From assembly GCF_003315205.1 (NCBI RefSeq), contig NZ_QNRR01000002.1, positions 1,094,857-1,158,856 of the forward strand: a stretch of DNA of 64,000 bases, in the 5' to 3' direction. The DNA comes from Roseimicrobium gellanilyticum. GTDB lineage: Bacteria > Verrucomicrobiota > Verrucomicrobiia > Verrucomicrobiales > Verrucomicrobiaceae. The position numbers and the translations under genes are program-made. Each line of letters opens with the position of its first letter. Positions within the stretch are counted from its first letter, which is position 1. Below the pieces are notes generated by a model that searched no databases, was not told where the DNA came from, and saw only the letters and a program-made list of their open reading frames with translations. Shown piece by piece: positions 20,662 to 63,361 of this stretch.

Positions 20662-20720
20662 TGTGAGCTGAGCATATGGTGTTCTGGCGTCAGGTCGATG
20701 CACCGTGTGCCTGAGGAACG

Positions 20721-20759
20721 AATGACTCGCGAAGGGACTCGCGAGCTACGTTGGGACTT
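20721..20759 (+). repeat. REP-like hairpin repeat, copy 1
   Basis: A 39-base unit containing CTCGCGAAGGGACTCGCGAG (6-bp stem CTCGCG/CGCGAG) followed by CTACGTTGG. It differs at two positions from the copy at 23421-23459, and a partial copy occurs near 63252. It lies between convergent genes. Confidence 0.65.
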
Positions 20760-23394: not shown

Positions 23395-23420
23395 CTCCAT
23401 CGGTCGTGCTTGCATAGAGG

Positions 23421-23459
23421 AATGCCTCGCGAAGGGACTCGCGAGCTACGTTGGAACTT
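23421..23459 (+). repeat. REP-like hairpin repeat, copy 2
   Basis: Same 39-base unit as 20721-20759 (two differences) in the same orientation. It lies between the phosphofructokinase 3' end and paralogue B. Confidence 0.65.
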
Positions 23460-29865: not shown

Positions 29866-30163
29866 TCCTCTCTGGGCAAGGTGCTGGCCGAGTTCCCCTC
29901 TGGTCTGTAATCTCAAACTACCAAGAAAGGCCCGGTGGGAAGGTGGCGCAGCACCTCCCCACCGGAACTTTTCGAGTAGTTTCAAATGATAGACCAGAGG
30001 GATCACTCTCCATACTTTCTCGCGGGAAGAGGGGGGACGTTTCATTTTTTCAACCCGGGTGCTCTCGGACGGAGGCTCGACTTCAATGCCCTCTTCGAAA
30101 ACTCATCCATTTCCTAAGCCCGCCCCCTTGCGCCCGTTTGCCATGATCTGGTAAAAACCAATC
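29866..30163. other. Intergenic region between argS and the first giant TPR gene
   Basis: About 300 bases holding the 106-base inverted repeat (annotated separately) and, downstream, the expected promoter of the TPR gene. The last 160 bases are non-coding, moderately AT-rich near 30040-30050 and near 30150 (GGTAAAAACC just before the start). Confidence 0.5.
29896..30001. repeat. Long imperfect inverted repeat
   Basis: Two arms of about 50 bases pair around a short centre. The outer CCCTCTGGTCT (29896-29906) is matched perfectly by AGACCAGAGGG (29991-30001). Internal blocks AAACTAC, AAG and CCGGTGGG also pair with their partners. The loop is only about 5-8 bases. In RNA this would be a very stable hairpin. 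It may be a terminator of argS, an RNA regulatory hairpin, or a non-autonomous mobile element; no flanking target duplication is obvious. Confidence 0.65.
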
Positions 30164-50327: not shown

Positions 50328-50380
50328 GGCGGCTGGAGTGGGTGGAATGGGTTGTTGGAGCGCTTGGCCAGTTCGAGCCA

Positions 50381-50517
50381 AGTAATCAGTAGGTCAGTGT
50401 CCAGTAATCAGAAATGAAGTCCAACTCCATGACCCTCTGCCCCCTTCGAACACACCAACAGGCTCTGAAATCACTGCCTTCTGAACACTGATTACTGTTT
50501 ACTGAACACTGGTTACT
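50381..50517. repeat. Gene-less inverted-repeat element upstream of moxR
   Basis: A 137-base unit bounded by related inverted ends: AGTAATCAGTAGGTCAGTG (from 50381) on the left and, on the right, the complement of TTACTGAACACTGGTTACT, ending at 50517. The ends contain repeated CAGTAATCAG / CAGTGTTCAG blocks identical in kind to the terminal repeats of the 52781-53345 element. The 69-base interior has no coding capacity. It looks like a deletion derivative or non-autonomous relative. Confidence 0.65.
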
Positions 50518-50550
50518 TCTTGCCACTCCCACCACATCAAGTCTCCCGCA

Positions 50551-51564: not shown

Positions 51565-51879
51565 ATGAACACCTACTTGCAGAAGCGCTGGAGTGGAAGC
51601 GTCACGAATCCGTCTGAGTCAGACATGCGAACTGCACTGGCTGAGCTCAGCACGCACGATCCTGAACATCCTGATTGCTGGCTGTCTGATGAGAATGGCT
51701 GGACCATTTCAACAAACGAAGCCGGTACGATCGTCCTCGAAAATGCCGAAACCGACGAGGGTCCATGGCACATTCCGAACTCCGATACAGACATGGTGCT
51801 GACTCTCTGGAAGCACCTCAGCGCTGGTGAAATGGAATTGGTGAGATCGCATCCCTGGAAAAGCGGTTATCAGCCCTAA
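51565..51879 (+). CDS. Small hypothetical protein, possibly Imm1-like
   Basis: A 104-residue acidic, soluble protein with no signal or membrane segment. The N-terminal pattern NPSESDMRTALAELSTHDPE and the following WLSDENGWTISTNEAG resemble the Imm1-type immunity protein layout (an N-terminal P-S-x-x-D-x-x-x-A-L-x-x-L helix, then a W-L-S-D strand). The match is by eye and tentative. It starts 18 bases after moxR and 35 bases before the DUF58 gene, with a reasonable GAGGGG site before its ATG. An immunity-like gene inside a MoxR cluster would be odd, so it may be an insertion. Confidence 0.6.
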   Translation: MNTYLQKRWSGSVTNPSESDMRTALAELSTHDPEHPDCWLSDENGWTISTNEAGTIVLENAETDEGPWHIPNSDTDMVLTLWKHLSAGEMELVRSHPWKSGYQP

Positions 51880-51914: not shown

Positions 51915-52778
51915 ATGCTTACAGACCCCGCCTTCATCCGCCGCCTAGAGTCGCTCTACCTTCTGGCACGGAAGATTCTTGGCGGCTCCCTGCAGGCGGA
52001 TCGTCGCAGCACGAAGAAGGGCGCCGGCATCACCTTCGCCGACTATGCGCAGTACTCGCTGGGCGATGACTACCGCTCCATCGACTGGCGCGTGTATGCA
52101 AAGTTCGAGTCACTGCTCATCAAGCTCTTCGAACTCGAAGAAGACGCCACCATCTACCTGCTGATTGATTGCAGTCCCTCGATGGCGAGCAAGCAGCAGT
52201 ATGCGAAGGAACTCACCGCAGCGCTCGGCTACATCGCACTGAATACGCTCGACCGTCTCGCGGTGTATGGGCTGGCGGACAAGCTGCGACCGCTCTTTGA
52301 CCCTACGCGTGGGCGCAATCAAGTCATCCCGTTCCTGCGCTCCCTCGATGCCGCGCCCTCATTTGGCGTAGACACGGACCTGACGGCCTGTGCGCGAGAG
52401 TTCGAGGCGAGGCATCGGCGCAAAGGTCTCGTGTGTGTCATCTCGGATTTTCTTTTCCCTGGCGGCTACGAAGAAGGCCTGAGCCGCTTGCAGTGGCACA
52501 AGCACGAGGTCTTCTGCTTGCAAACGCTGGACGACAACGACCTGAAGTGCGCATGGAAGGGCGATGTAACCCTGGAGTGTGTGGAAACGGGAGCCTCGCA
52601 GAAAGTCACCGTGTCTCCACGTGAAGCGAAGATGTACGAAGAAGCCGTCGCGGAATGGAATGCTGGATTGCAGCGCACGTGCGCGAAGCGGGGTCTTGGC
52701 TTTGTGAGCACCACGACGGAGCGGCCATTTGATGAAGTGATTCAGGATCTTCTGAGACGAGGGGGATTGGTCGGATAA
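51915..52778 (+). CDS. DUF58 (VWA-like) protein
   Basis: A 287-residue protein of the DUF58 family. The typical opening LESLYLLARKILGGSLQADRR is followed by ITFADYAQYSLGDDYRSIDW and the VWA-like DCSPSMASKQQYAKE (MIDAS motif D-x-S-x-S). DUF58 proteins stand downstream of moxR in nearly all MoxR operons and are thought to be ATPase partners. Downstream is the inserted element that separates it from the batA-like gene. Only two bases lie between its stop and the element. Confidence 0.92.
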   Translation: MLTDPAFIRRLESLYLLARKILGGSLQADRRSTKKGAGITFADYAQYSLGDDYRSIDWRVYAKFESLLIKLFELEEDATIYLLIDCSPSMASKQQYAKELTAALGYIALNTLDRLAVYGLADKLRPLFDPTRGRNQVIPFLRSLDAAPSFGVDTDLTACAREFEARHRRKGLVCVISDFLFPGGYEEGLSRLQWHKHEVFCLQTLDDNDLKCAWKGDVTLECVETGASQKVTVSPREAKMYEEAVAEWNAGLQRTCAKRGLGFVSTTTERPFDEVIQDLLRRGGLVG

Positions 52779-52780
52779 GG

Positions 52781-53345
52781 AGTAAACAGTAATCAGTGTT
52801 CAGTAATCAGAAGCATCTCTAAATTCTATGGAACTGGAATATGCGCGCAGCTTTCATGAACTGGTGGTCTACCAGAAGGCGCGATTGTTGCAGAAGGAGG
52901 TTTTGGACTTGTCTCGTGGGTTTCCAGATTTCGAGCGCTACGGCCTTACGGATCAAATACGGAGAGCTTCGCGTTCCATCGGAGGCCAGATTGCGGAAGG
53001 CTGGGCGAAGCGAGCCTACCCGCGCCACTTTGTCAGCAAGCTAACAGATGCCGACGGAGAACAGCTTGAAACGCAGCACTGGCTCATCACCTCAGTAGAT
53101 TCGCAATACGTCTCCCGGGAGACCGCTGCGCCATTTTATCAACTCTGTCTGGAGATTGGTCGCATGCTTGGCAAGATGATCCTGCGTCACAAGGATTTCT
53201 GCCAACCTAGTTCAGCCATCCTTCGGGAAGACTTCGAAGAATTTTTTGCACCCTACAATCCTAATCATCATCCCCTAAACGCAATCAATCTAGAGTTCTC
53301 CTCCACCATCTCATACTGATTACTGAACACTGGTTACTGCTTACT
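52781..53345. mobile_element. Inverted-repeat-bounded element carrying a four-helix-bundle gene
   Basis: A 565-base unit bounded by 30-base terminal inverted repeats (52781-52810 and 53316-53345) that match at 28 of 30 positions. Each end has repeated CAGTAATCAG/CAGTGTTCAG blocks. The only gene is the four-helix-bundle gene, whose stop codon lies inside the right end. The hexamer TCGGAT occurs just outside both ends (52771-52776 and 53347-53352), a possible target duplication, although 4 bases and 1 base separate it from the repeats. No transposase is present, so any movement would need enzymes in trans. Confidence 0.75.
52828..53319 (+). CDS. Four-helix-bundle protein (S23 / 23S rRNA intervening-sequence family)
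   Basis: A 163-residue protein of the four-helix-bundle family. The N-terminal FHELVVYQKARLLQKEVLDL and DLSRGFPDFERYGLTDQIRR, ASRSIGGQIAEGWAKR, and a C-terminal helical region all fit the family pattern. These proteins are named from open frames in intervening sequences of 23S rRNA, and related frames occur between genes elsewhere; their function is unclear. Here it is the cargo of the inverted-repeat element. The C-terminal 35 residues (SSAILREDFEEFFAPYNPNH onwards) look unusual and end within the terminal repeat. Confidence 0.85.
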   Translation: MELEYARSFHELVVYQKARLLQKEVLDLSRGFPDFERYGLTDQIRRASRSIGGQIAEGWAKRAYPRHFVSKLTDADGEQLETQHWLITSVDSQYVSRETAAPFYQLCLEIGRMLGKMILRHKDFCQPSSAILREDFEEFFAPYNPNHHPLNAINLEFSSTISY

Positions 53346-53350
53346 TTCGG

Positions 53351-55123
53351 ATGTCCCTCCTCGCTCCCGCCTTCCTCTGGACACTTGCGGCACTCGCGCC
53401 GCTGGCGGCGATTTATTTCCTCAAGGTCAGGCCACGGAAGAAGCCGGTGACGGCCTACTTCCTGTGGCAGAAGATTTTTACGGAGAAGAAGGCATCGGCG
53501 TTGTTCAATAGATTGCGGGATGTGCTTTCGCTCATTCTGATGGCGCTGGCGTTTGCGGCGGTGGCATTTGCGTTGGCAGAGCCCGACTTTGCTGGAGATG
53601 AACGCAAGGACCTGCTCATCGTCGTGGACCATTCAGCCTCCATGTCCGCAAAGGAAGGCACGAGCACGCGCTTGGAACAGGCGAAGGCCAAGGCGAAGGC
53701 GCTCATCACGGGACTCAACGGTACGCAGCGGGCGGCGGTGGCCACATTCGCCTCTGAGACGGAGATGCGCGCGCATCCCACGCGGCATCGCAAGTCGTTG
53801 CTGGATGCAGTGGATGCCATCGGACCGACGGAGCTTCCCTCGCGAGTGGAGGCGCTGCGCTCGCTCCAACCGGGGAATGAGTGGATGAAGAACACGCGTG
53901 TGCTGCTCATCACGGATGGATGCCTGGATGATGCGGCGCGGTTGCCGCAGGTGGAGGTCATCAAGATCGGCGGCGAGGTGACGAACGTGGGACTCGCGCG
54001 GGCGGACCTGCGGGCGGTGCCTGGAGGTGTGGAGCGGCTGGGGCTTTTCCTTCTTCCCGTTTCCTCTTCCAAAGAGCCGGTGAAGACGGACATCACGCTC
54101 ACCCACATGGACAGCAAGCGCATGGTGAAAGTCATCCCTGTGACGCTGAATGCCGGTGACAACGCCCCGGTGACACTGACGCTCGATGATGCGCCGAGTG
54201 GCCGATGGACGGCTTCTCTTGGCCTTGATGATGCGCTGACCACGGACAACACGGTGAACCTCTATGTGCCGCCGCGTGAACCGGTGCCTGTGGGTGTGCT
54301 CGCGGAGGACGGATTCTTCCTCCAGCATGTGGTGGCGGCCTTCGACCGCAGTGACCAGATGCTGACACTGGCGCAGGATGCGAAGAGTGCGCGCATCTTC
54401 CTCGCGCGTGGCAAGGCTCCGGAAACAGCGAGCGCCATTGTGTTCCAGCCACAGGGTGAGTCGCCCTTCTGGTCACAGGTCGGTGAAGAGATTCTCAACC
54501 CCGTGCCGAAGATTGTGGCGAAGGACCATCCGCTGCTGCGGTATCTCGATGCGGAGACCATCAACTTCGCCGGAGCTCGCAAGCTCACTGCGCCTGCCGG
54601 TGCCGTGGTGCTGGTGGCGGATGAAGGGGGCACGCCGCTCATCCACCTGATGCGTCAGGGTGAGCAGATGGTGTGCGTGGTGAATCTCGACCCCATCGTG
54701 GCGCAGTTCTACCTCTCAGCGTGGTTCCCTGTGATGGTGCACAATGGTACGGCACACCTGACCCATCGCGAGGGTGCACCTCCGGCCACAGTACCCACGG
54801 GCGGCAGTCTCCGCGTACCCGGACTCGCAGAAGGCGCGACGGCAACGATGAAGTCCCCCTCCGGCACGGAAACGACCATCACTGGACCTGATACGGGTGA
54901 GTTGCTGGAGAGCGGCTTCTACGAAATCGCGCACGCCGGCGGCGCCTGGAGCGCGGGATGCTCGCTGGTCTCGCCTGAAGAGTCCCAATTACAAAATGAT
55001 ACACTCAAGGACACCGCGAAGCCCATTGCCAGCGGACAATCCCCCTCCTACTGGCTCCTCGTGCTGGGCGTGCTGGTGGTGGCAGGCGAGTCGGTCCTTT
55101 ATCACCGGAGGAAGGTAGGCTAG
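53351..55123 (+). CDS. BatA-like VWA membrane protein
   Basis: A 590-residue protein. The N-terminal BatA domain has two membrane helices (FLWTLAALAPLAAIYFLKVR and VLSLILMALAFAAVAFALAE). A VWA domain follows with a metal-ion site DHSASMSA (D-x-S-x-S), and the rest includes an Ig-like or linker portion and a C-terminal membrane helix (SYWLLVLGVLVVAGESVLYH). It sits 5 bases after the right end of the inserted element, whose left end abuts DUF58, so the original spacing between DUF58 and this gene is broken. The next gene starts 6 bases after the stop. Likely an envelope component working with MoxR. Confidence 0.9.
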   Translation: MSLLAPAFLWTLAALAPLAAIYFLKVRPRKKPVTAYFLWQKIFTEKKASALFNRLRDVLSLILMALAFAAVAFALAEPDFAGDERKDLLIVVDHSASMSAKEGTSTRLEQAKAKAKALITGLNGTQRAAVATFASETEMRAHPTRHRKSLLDAVDAIGPTELPSRVEALRSLQPGNEWMKNTRVLLITDGCLDDAARLPQVEVIKIGGEVTNVGLARADLRAVPGGVERLGLFLLPVSSSKEPVKTDITLTHMDSKRMVKVIPVTLNAGDNAPVTLTLDDAPSGRWTASLGLDDALTTDNTVNLYVPPREPVPVGVLAEDGFFLQHVVAAFDRSDQMLTLAQDAKSARIFLARGKAPETASAIVFQPQGESPFWSQVGEEILNPVPKIVAKDHPLLRYLDAETINFAGARKLTAPAGAVVLVADEGGTPLIHLMRQGEQMVCVVNLDPIVAQFYLSAWFPVMVHNGTAHLTHREGAPPATVPTGGSLRVPGLAEGATATMKSPSGTETTITGPDTGELLESGFYEIAHAGGAWSAGCSLVSPEESQLQNDTLKDTAKPIASGQSPSYWLLVLGVLVVAGESVLYHRRKVG

Positions 55124-63061: not shown

Positions 63062-63361
63062 GGATGACCTGTGAGCAGCCGAAAATGTGATACTGCACCA
63101 AGGCCCGACGCATCGCCTTGGGATGGAGTGGACTCACATGTCTCACGTTTTGCTCCATGAGAGCAAAGCACATCAGGACAAGAGCACTCCCCTTTTTCGT
63201 TCTCTTGCGCCTATTCTCTCAAGCGGGCACCAAGCGATGCCGCAGACCCACTGACTCGCGAAGGGAATCCTCCTTCGTCGGGCTTCGCTAACGCGAGCCA
63301 TGTTGAATGCGGCACGACTCCACCACCGCACCACTTACCGCTCACCGCCGCACCGGACAAA
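63062..63361. other. Gene-free region downstream of truB
   Basis: About 300 bases with no supported gene. It holds a partial copy of the REP-like repeat (TGACTCGCGAAGGGA, 63252-63266, then divergent sequence) and a T-rich stretch near 63190-63205. Confidence 0.4.

Follow-up and report, generated by a model that had tools for sequence, protein, structure and literature searches.

Between a DUF58 gene and a batA-like gene of Roseimicrobium gellanilyticum lies what is probably a transposase-free mobile element, akin to the intervening sequences (IVSs) of 23S rRNA but placed between genes, whose Avd-like four-helix-bundle protein would recognize the short words that make up its own ends. Its architecture and surroundings are described here in the window (the whole 64,000-nt stretch of DNA that was analyzed), followed by the occurrence of the same architecture around related genes, the correspondence between end words and protein, and the comparison of filled and empty sites.

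Architecture of the element and its junction

The element lies between two copies of TCGGAT (Table 1), and its two arms of 30 nt, 505 nt apart, are 93% complementary (28/30). As the preliminary description of this locus had stated, they enclose a single four-helix-bundle gene with its stop inside the right arm, and the element lies between the DUF58 stop (52776–52778) and the batA ATG (53351). The gene, with its TGA at 53317–53319, was identified as a member of PF05635; ORF and profile searches of the element found no transposase and no gene other than PF05635. What had been regarded as one fixed terminal repeat is instead a vocabulary of 7-bp words, the end arrays being inverted rows of degenerate words of the form CAGTNNT. 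The core word CAGTAATCAGTGTTCAG has five matches in the window (≤ 3 mismatches) vs. 0.08 expected, and three of these five form part of another inverted pair, one that encloses no gene; this pair also stands in G001, a genome of the same genus, where both arms carry an A-to-T change (read by eye).

Table 1 Features of the element and its surroundings, in window coordinates
Feature	Position	Strand	Basis or remark
Whole element	52777..53346	+	Limits inferred, spanning the interval that the TCGGAT copies bound; compared with junctions without the insert
Left word array, AGTAAAC-AGTAATC-AGTGTTC-AGTAATC-AG, period 7	52781..52810	+	Inverted-repeat and period analysis
Right word array, inverted copy, 28/30 vs. 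left	53316..53345	-	Inverted-repeat analysis
Four-helix-bundle gene, PF05635/TIGR02436, 163 aa	52828..53319	+	Profile matches, structure model, fold matches 2gsc, 2rld and Avd 4dwl
TCGGAT, at the 3' end of the DUF58 ORF	52771..52776	+	Sequence
TCGGAT, second copy, its last two letters open the batA start codon	53347..53352	+	Sequence
Upstream neighbor, DUF58 gene, TAA stop overlaps the element edge	51915..52778	+	ORF and profile
Downstream neighbor, batA-like gene	53351..55123	+	ORF and profile
Left word array of the gene-less inverted pair, same word type	50380..50411	+	Sequence
Right word array of the gene-less inverted pair	50488..50518	-	Pair also present in same-genus genome G001

The claim that the element interrupts a normally tight operon was borne out by its relatives. 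DUF58 orthologues were retrieved at E ≤ 1e−60 from 18 of 77 genomes (the own genome included), and a motif at the DUF58 end allowed 17 of the 18 junctions to be read (L080 was unmatched), i.e., 16 from relatives plus the own one, which were typed by eye from printed sequences. None of the 16 relatives' junctions carries the four-helix gene. In 10 of them the DUF58 stop overlaps the batA start (eight of the ATGA type, L065–L071 and L075, and two of the GTGA type, L078 and L079), while L072–L074 have a TAA followed by a short gap and L076 has a different sequence downstream; a single arm of GAGTTA-like words is present in L064 (G001), and L077 (G016) has TTGGAAATTG-like words as an inverted pair that encloses no gene. 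The DUF58 gene of the own genome ends in a TAA that arises at the element edge. An alignment of G000 and G001 was unusable for finding insertions, since its long pieces are diverged (~66–91% identity) and rearranged, so that intergenic insertions could not be read from it.

Other features of the window comprise a 104-aa ORF between the MoxR and DUF58 genes (51565–51879; no Pfam match at E ≤ 0.001), a 50-nt inverted repeat with 78% complementarity and a 6-nt loop (29896–30001), and palindrome-like repeats around TCGCGAAGGGACTCGCGAGCTACGTT (20716–20759, 23416–23459, and 63245–63269; also at G000:C2:804440), possibly a separate REP-like family.

The four-helix protein

The window protein matches PF05635 (23S_rRNA_IVP; E = 4.3e−29, 101.3 bits vs. 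a cut-off of 33.8) and TIGR02436 (92 vs. a cut-off of 24). PADLOC gave no match for it, and we know of no catalytic motif in PF05635. Its AlphaFold2 model (mean pLDDT 87.6) matched 2gsc_B with a TM-score of 0.92 by target, which assigns it the four-helix fold of XCC0516, and 2rld was matched as well; both structures have five chains, and PMC4990558 describes XCC0516 as a homopentamer of toroidal shape. Avd (4dwl) was matched below these two (TM 0.89 by target, E = 0.013), and the relationship to Avd was also found by profile (phrog_3206, E = 2.2e−7). The invariant or nearly invariant residues Q43, R46, S50, E57, and E81 fit the conserved motif GxxRxxxSxxxNxxE reported for the family (PMC3936711).

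Inverted arms around PF05635 genes

Arms were scored by aligning the 250 nt upstream of each gene with the reverse complement of the 350 nt downstream, in three samples: 96 loci from the own genome and its relatives (7 own-genome loci, 29 others, and the next 60 in the relatives' match list), the best 80 of 582 confirmed PF05635 loci from many phyla, and 35 loci from viral contigs. A score of at least 12 was reached in 89/96, 69/80 (of these best 80), and 27/35 loci, respectively (24/28 in the viral contigs when identical arm pairs were counted once), vs. 6.9–7.8% of mismatched loci and 4.5–7.8% of comparisons elsewhere in the same loci; 7/96, 11/80 (again among the best 80 of 582), and 8/35 fell below the cut. 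All seven PF05635 genes of the own genome have inverted arms (scores 12–35), with a different word at each as read by eye. The preliminary description knew of no element of this exact form; most PF05635 genes sampled share such a form, so the window element is not a lone case.

By record title, the hosts of armed loci include Bacteroidetes, Acidobacteria, Clostridia, Planctomycetes, Proteobacteria, and a Nostoc, and an archaeal MAG (L188) is found among the PF05635 loci with an arm score of 14.5. A same-family locus (L041) shares its arms with a Verrucomicrobiota MAG (L181), CAGT arrays stand on both sides of a gene near a contig edge (L058, score 21), and 13 of 15 cyanobacterial plasmid loci (some being copies of one another) score at least 19, the other two scoring 10. 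Element lengths have quartiles of 458–553 nt (151 loci). The best repeat lag, taken from arms of at least 18 nt in 171 loci with a score ≥ 14, was 7 in 247/336 arms and 8 in 51/336, and G exceeded C on the inward strand in 157 of these 171 loci. Of these loci, 158 have long ORFs on both sides, and in 106 of the 158 the upstream gene is co-directional; the median distance between its stop and the left arm is 2.5 nt, with 68/106 stops no more than 10 nt away, a proximity that compact genomes and selection could explain in part.

Among individual loci, the four-helix genes of two Flavobacterium genomes (L196 and L198) have the same flanking ORF on either side, apparently at a shared site, and PF05635 elements with inverted word arrays occupy the cas6–cas4 junctions of plasmid-borne CRISPR loci in Anabaena sp. 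90 and Pseudanabaena galeata (L379, L383).

End words follow the protein

Matches to the window protein numbered 40 in 77 genomes, 18 of them with E ≤ 2.1e−31 and 22 more distant. Words of the form C(A/G)GT-N3-4-C(A/G)GT stand on both sides in 16 of the 18 closer loci (the exceptions being L352 and L353; in L327, cut by a contig edge, the words were read by position), with the reservation that the E cut was picked after seeing the data and that sister-species members at one site are not independent; they stand on both sides in none of the 11 assessable more distant loci (12 of the 22 were examined as loci). A sister group (L056, L148, L160, and L125) has AGAC-type words, as judged by eye.

The correspondence was quantified in locus pairs without a homologous flanking ORF, using 500 permutations. 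At 60–90% protein identity (118 pairs), the 5-mer cosine of the arms was 0.224 vs. 0.062 when permuted (0/500), and at 52–60% (862 pairs) arm similarity likewise lay above all permutations (0/500), while the same test gave no word match at 45–52% identity or below.

The two arms of an element also change together: at 60–80% protein identity, the arms within one element were more similar than the corresponding arms of two loci in 134/144 pairs with shared flanks, an effect that is gone at 80–93% (12/24 pairs); a shared flank here means any flanking ORF match, so the same junction is not certain. At the ilvB/ilvN copies the word differs from genome to genome and is identical at both ends (by eye). 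One copy at this junction (L027, G000:C3:188723–189040) has a decayed four-helix gene with an internal TAA and has kept its inverted arms.

Concerted change of the arms fits a reading in which they are a selected RNA-processing or insulating structure, old and essentially immobile, with a stem that is cut by RNase III and so separates the messages of the neighboring genes; the flanking genes shared by many close relatives across genera, and the reported cleavage of 23S IVS stems by RNase III (PMC4990558), are in line with it. We nevertheless consider it quite improbable, as arm mismatches are not G-U-biased in sense RNA (141 sense-compatible vs. 169 antisense-compatible), a test that gives no support to RNA-pairing selection, as a match between words and protein would be unexpected, and as the presence/absence pattern and element-limited homology given below show insertion at different sites.

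Gene-less copies of the same words

The word pattern has 26 matches (≤ 3 mismatches) in the 7.93-Mb own genome, representing 12 distinct loci, all with an inverted partner 25–511 nt away and alignment scores of 10–31 (L019, with 10, being the weakest), vs. 5–9.5 for comparisons with a distant part of these loci. The window element is one of the 12; the other 11, among them the second pair of the window, coincide with none of the seven PF05635 genes. The preliminary description had named as counter-evidence a genome with no other copies of the ends and relatives that all carry the gene without repeats; what was found are these 11 further places, all without a four-helix gene, and the 16 relatives' junctions without it. 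At one of the 11 the inverted CAGT arrays enclose an unrelated 136-aa ORF with no Pfam match (L016/L400, G000:C19:1531–1938), and no arms were found around its homologues, which occur in 6 of the 76 other genomes searched.

Arrays also occur in genomes with no detected cognate gene (102 matches in G008, 48 in G013), and across the 77 genomes 12 of the 15 that have a cognate at E < 1e−30 contain arrays vs. 23 of 62 others, a weak, kinship-confounded difference counted by hand. In these array counts, the own genome gave 231 matches vs. 163 for a reversed control pattern. A de novo survey of inverted repeats in 400 kb each of G000 and G001 (ungapped, BLAST) gave few word-type pairs and was left out of the counts, and GGGAATC arrays searched in viral contigs gave three matches with no useful gene context.

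It is on these gene-less copies that another explanation draws, namely that the arrays are mobilized by an enzyme encoded elsewhere and that the four-helix gene is a passenger or accessory riding between them. They outnumber the gene-bearing copy in the own genome, arrays exist where no cognate was detected, and the 136-aa ORF is armed here and armless in other genomes; a mere passenger, however, would not be expected to have its protein tracked by the word type at unrelated sites, nor to be armed in most of the PF05635 genes sampled, and we regard this explanation as unlikely. Under the preferred reading of an element that recognizes its own end words, the gene-less pairs with the same word suggest movement in trans. 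The proposal of a discrete mobile unit moved in trans thus stands as far as the discrete unit is concerned, with its trans part suggested by these pairs.

Filled and empty sites

A search of plasmids revealed a Nostoc site that is filled in three records (L361, L362, and L387) and empty in five (L390–L394), two rearranged records (L388 and L389) being excluded from the counts. The left flanks of the five empty records are 89–94% identical to L361, and the left junction is identical in the three filled ones, which therefore count as a single insertion; on the right, the flank seen at the empty site recurs in L361 and L387 and is absent from L362. Five further records have the unit at other sites (L395–L399, of which L397 and L398 have one site in common), where the match to L361 or L387 is limited to the element, apart from one further match of 19 nt, and some alignments end inside the arrays. 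For example, the element of L387 (841–1311) aligns with that of L397 (1192–1660) over 842–1310 and 1192–1660, respectively, at 78% identity. Presence/absence and element-limited homology show insertion of the unit at more than one site; its past movement is well supported by these comparisons, and the PF05635 protein may be its cause. Few recent jumps are seen among the loci sampled, as most close relatives have their flanking genes in common.

The TCGGAT hexamer reported outside both ends is present in the window, and no target-site duplication common to the elements was found. Exact matches of at least 6 nt occur in the outer flanks of 13/170 elements (7.6%) vs. 5.0% of mismatched pairs, so the hexamer alone is weak evidence, and a scan of 146 elements with a score of at least 16 (lengths 3–10, offsets −6 to 12; each identical arm pair entered a single time) detected no duplication at fixed offsets. 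Sharing of 5-mers near the ends is slightly more frequent than expected (53/170 vs. 19.5%). By eye, L361 may have GTTGG twice, and L387 is without ~25 nt of the empty site.

Two four-helix proteins of one genome (G040; L130 and L131) are 99% identical and lie at paralogous sites, with left arrays that are very different in length, which we read as fast array growth or loss. A fresh jump was rejected for this pair, given that the flanks are partly homologous and gene conversion fits equally well. Such a length difference in near-identical copies would agree with 7-bp repeats that grew by slippage and became palindromic by template switching, the protein merely binding them (e.g., in DNA organization) and no mobile element being involved, and heptamer repeats untied to any gene are known (PMC4692102, PMC4679880); insert-free sites and homology confined to the unit make this very improbable.

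Proposed mechanism and comparison with known systems

The unit consists of an inverted array of 7-bp words, a PF05635 gene, and an inverted array of the same words, together ~450–550 bp, and is lodged between genes, often a few bases from a stop codon. Its protein is related to Avd and to XCC0516, which forms a pentameric ring. We propose that this protein would bind the words repeated at its own ends, with, as a guess, each subunit taking one word, and would bring the two ends together, thereby directing movement by a host nuclease or polymerase, in cis for its own unit and in trans for gene-less pairs with the same word.

REP sequences, which are short gene-less inverted units with few gene-bearing copies and are mobilized by RAYT transposases, resemble this system in having gene-less inverted units alongside few gene-bearing ones, whereas the element has no HUH tyrosine transposase and its ends are word arrays. 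It also differs from classical insertion sequences and MITEs in that it contains no transposase. Cyanobacterial STRRs are heptamer repeats and thus share the 7-bp unit with the arrays described here, as do two other families. The GGGNATC heptamers of Xanthomonas and Nostoc are in addition G-rich, occur as inverted pairs (70 cases in Xcc and 75 in Xac), lie close to stop codons, and are described as generally untied to mobile elements (PMC4692102), and for the TAACTGA repeats of Beggiatoaceae a repeat-binding protein has been suggested as the mobile part (PMC4679880). The passages on these two families name no gene partner, whereas here the partner is PF05635, and among the portions of the open-access (PMC) literature covered we found no paper tying PF05635 genes to heptamer arrays.

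With the Avd of diversity-generating retroelements (DGRs) the window protein shares fold and sequence signal, a likeness of PF05635 that is already in print (PMC10053308); it differs in scoring 27.2 bits, under the NF033474 cut-off of 80, and no reverse transcriptase or template/variable repeats were found inside the window element. The closest parallel in layout, inverted terminal repeats around an S23/IVP ORF, is the 23S rRNA IVS, reported as a 28-bp stem around an S23p ORF, 428 nt in length, with a scattered distribution and unclear function (PMC4990558); IVP ORFs are also reported from rRNA insertions of CPR bacteria (PMC11270868). The window element, in contrast, lies between DUF58 and batA, outside any 23S rRNA gene, and the elements here have ends of 7-bp word arrays that match the protein. 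Among 211 gene loci and 28 plasmid stretches, 23S motifs were found in none, a weak result, as the motif check had no positive control.

Implications for the PF05635 family

A wider reading, which we offer tentatively and rate at somewhat less than even, is that PF05635/TIGR02436 proteins, which are small and widespread, may drive the mobility of a distinct class of mobile DNA, as ring-shaped relatives of Avd that read 7-bp arrays, with one vocabulary per clade, and that move their own gene as well as gene-less pairs, have no transposase of their own, and target gene ends, 23S IVSs and several orphan heptamer families then being special cases. PF05635 genes in cas loci have been reported among CRISPR-Cas-associated functions (PMC3936711); since the two cas6–cas4 copies examined are enclosed by inverted arrays, caution is advised against taking PF05635 genes as functional neighbors of the genes beside them. 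Orphan heptamer repeats, too, would gain a candidate partner gene in PF05635. A part of the family's ORF in IVS mobility is a suggestion dating from 1993 (cited in PMC4990558), and the reading given here would provide a concrete, testable role for a family whose members go only by the names "four helix bundle protein" and "23S rRNA-intervening sequence protein".
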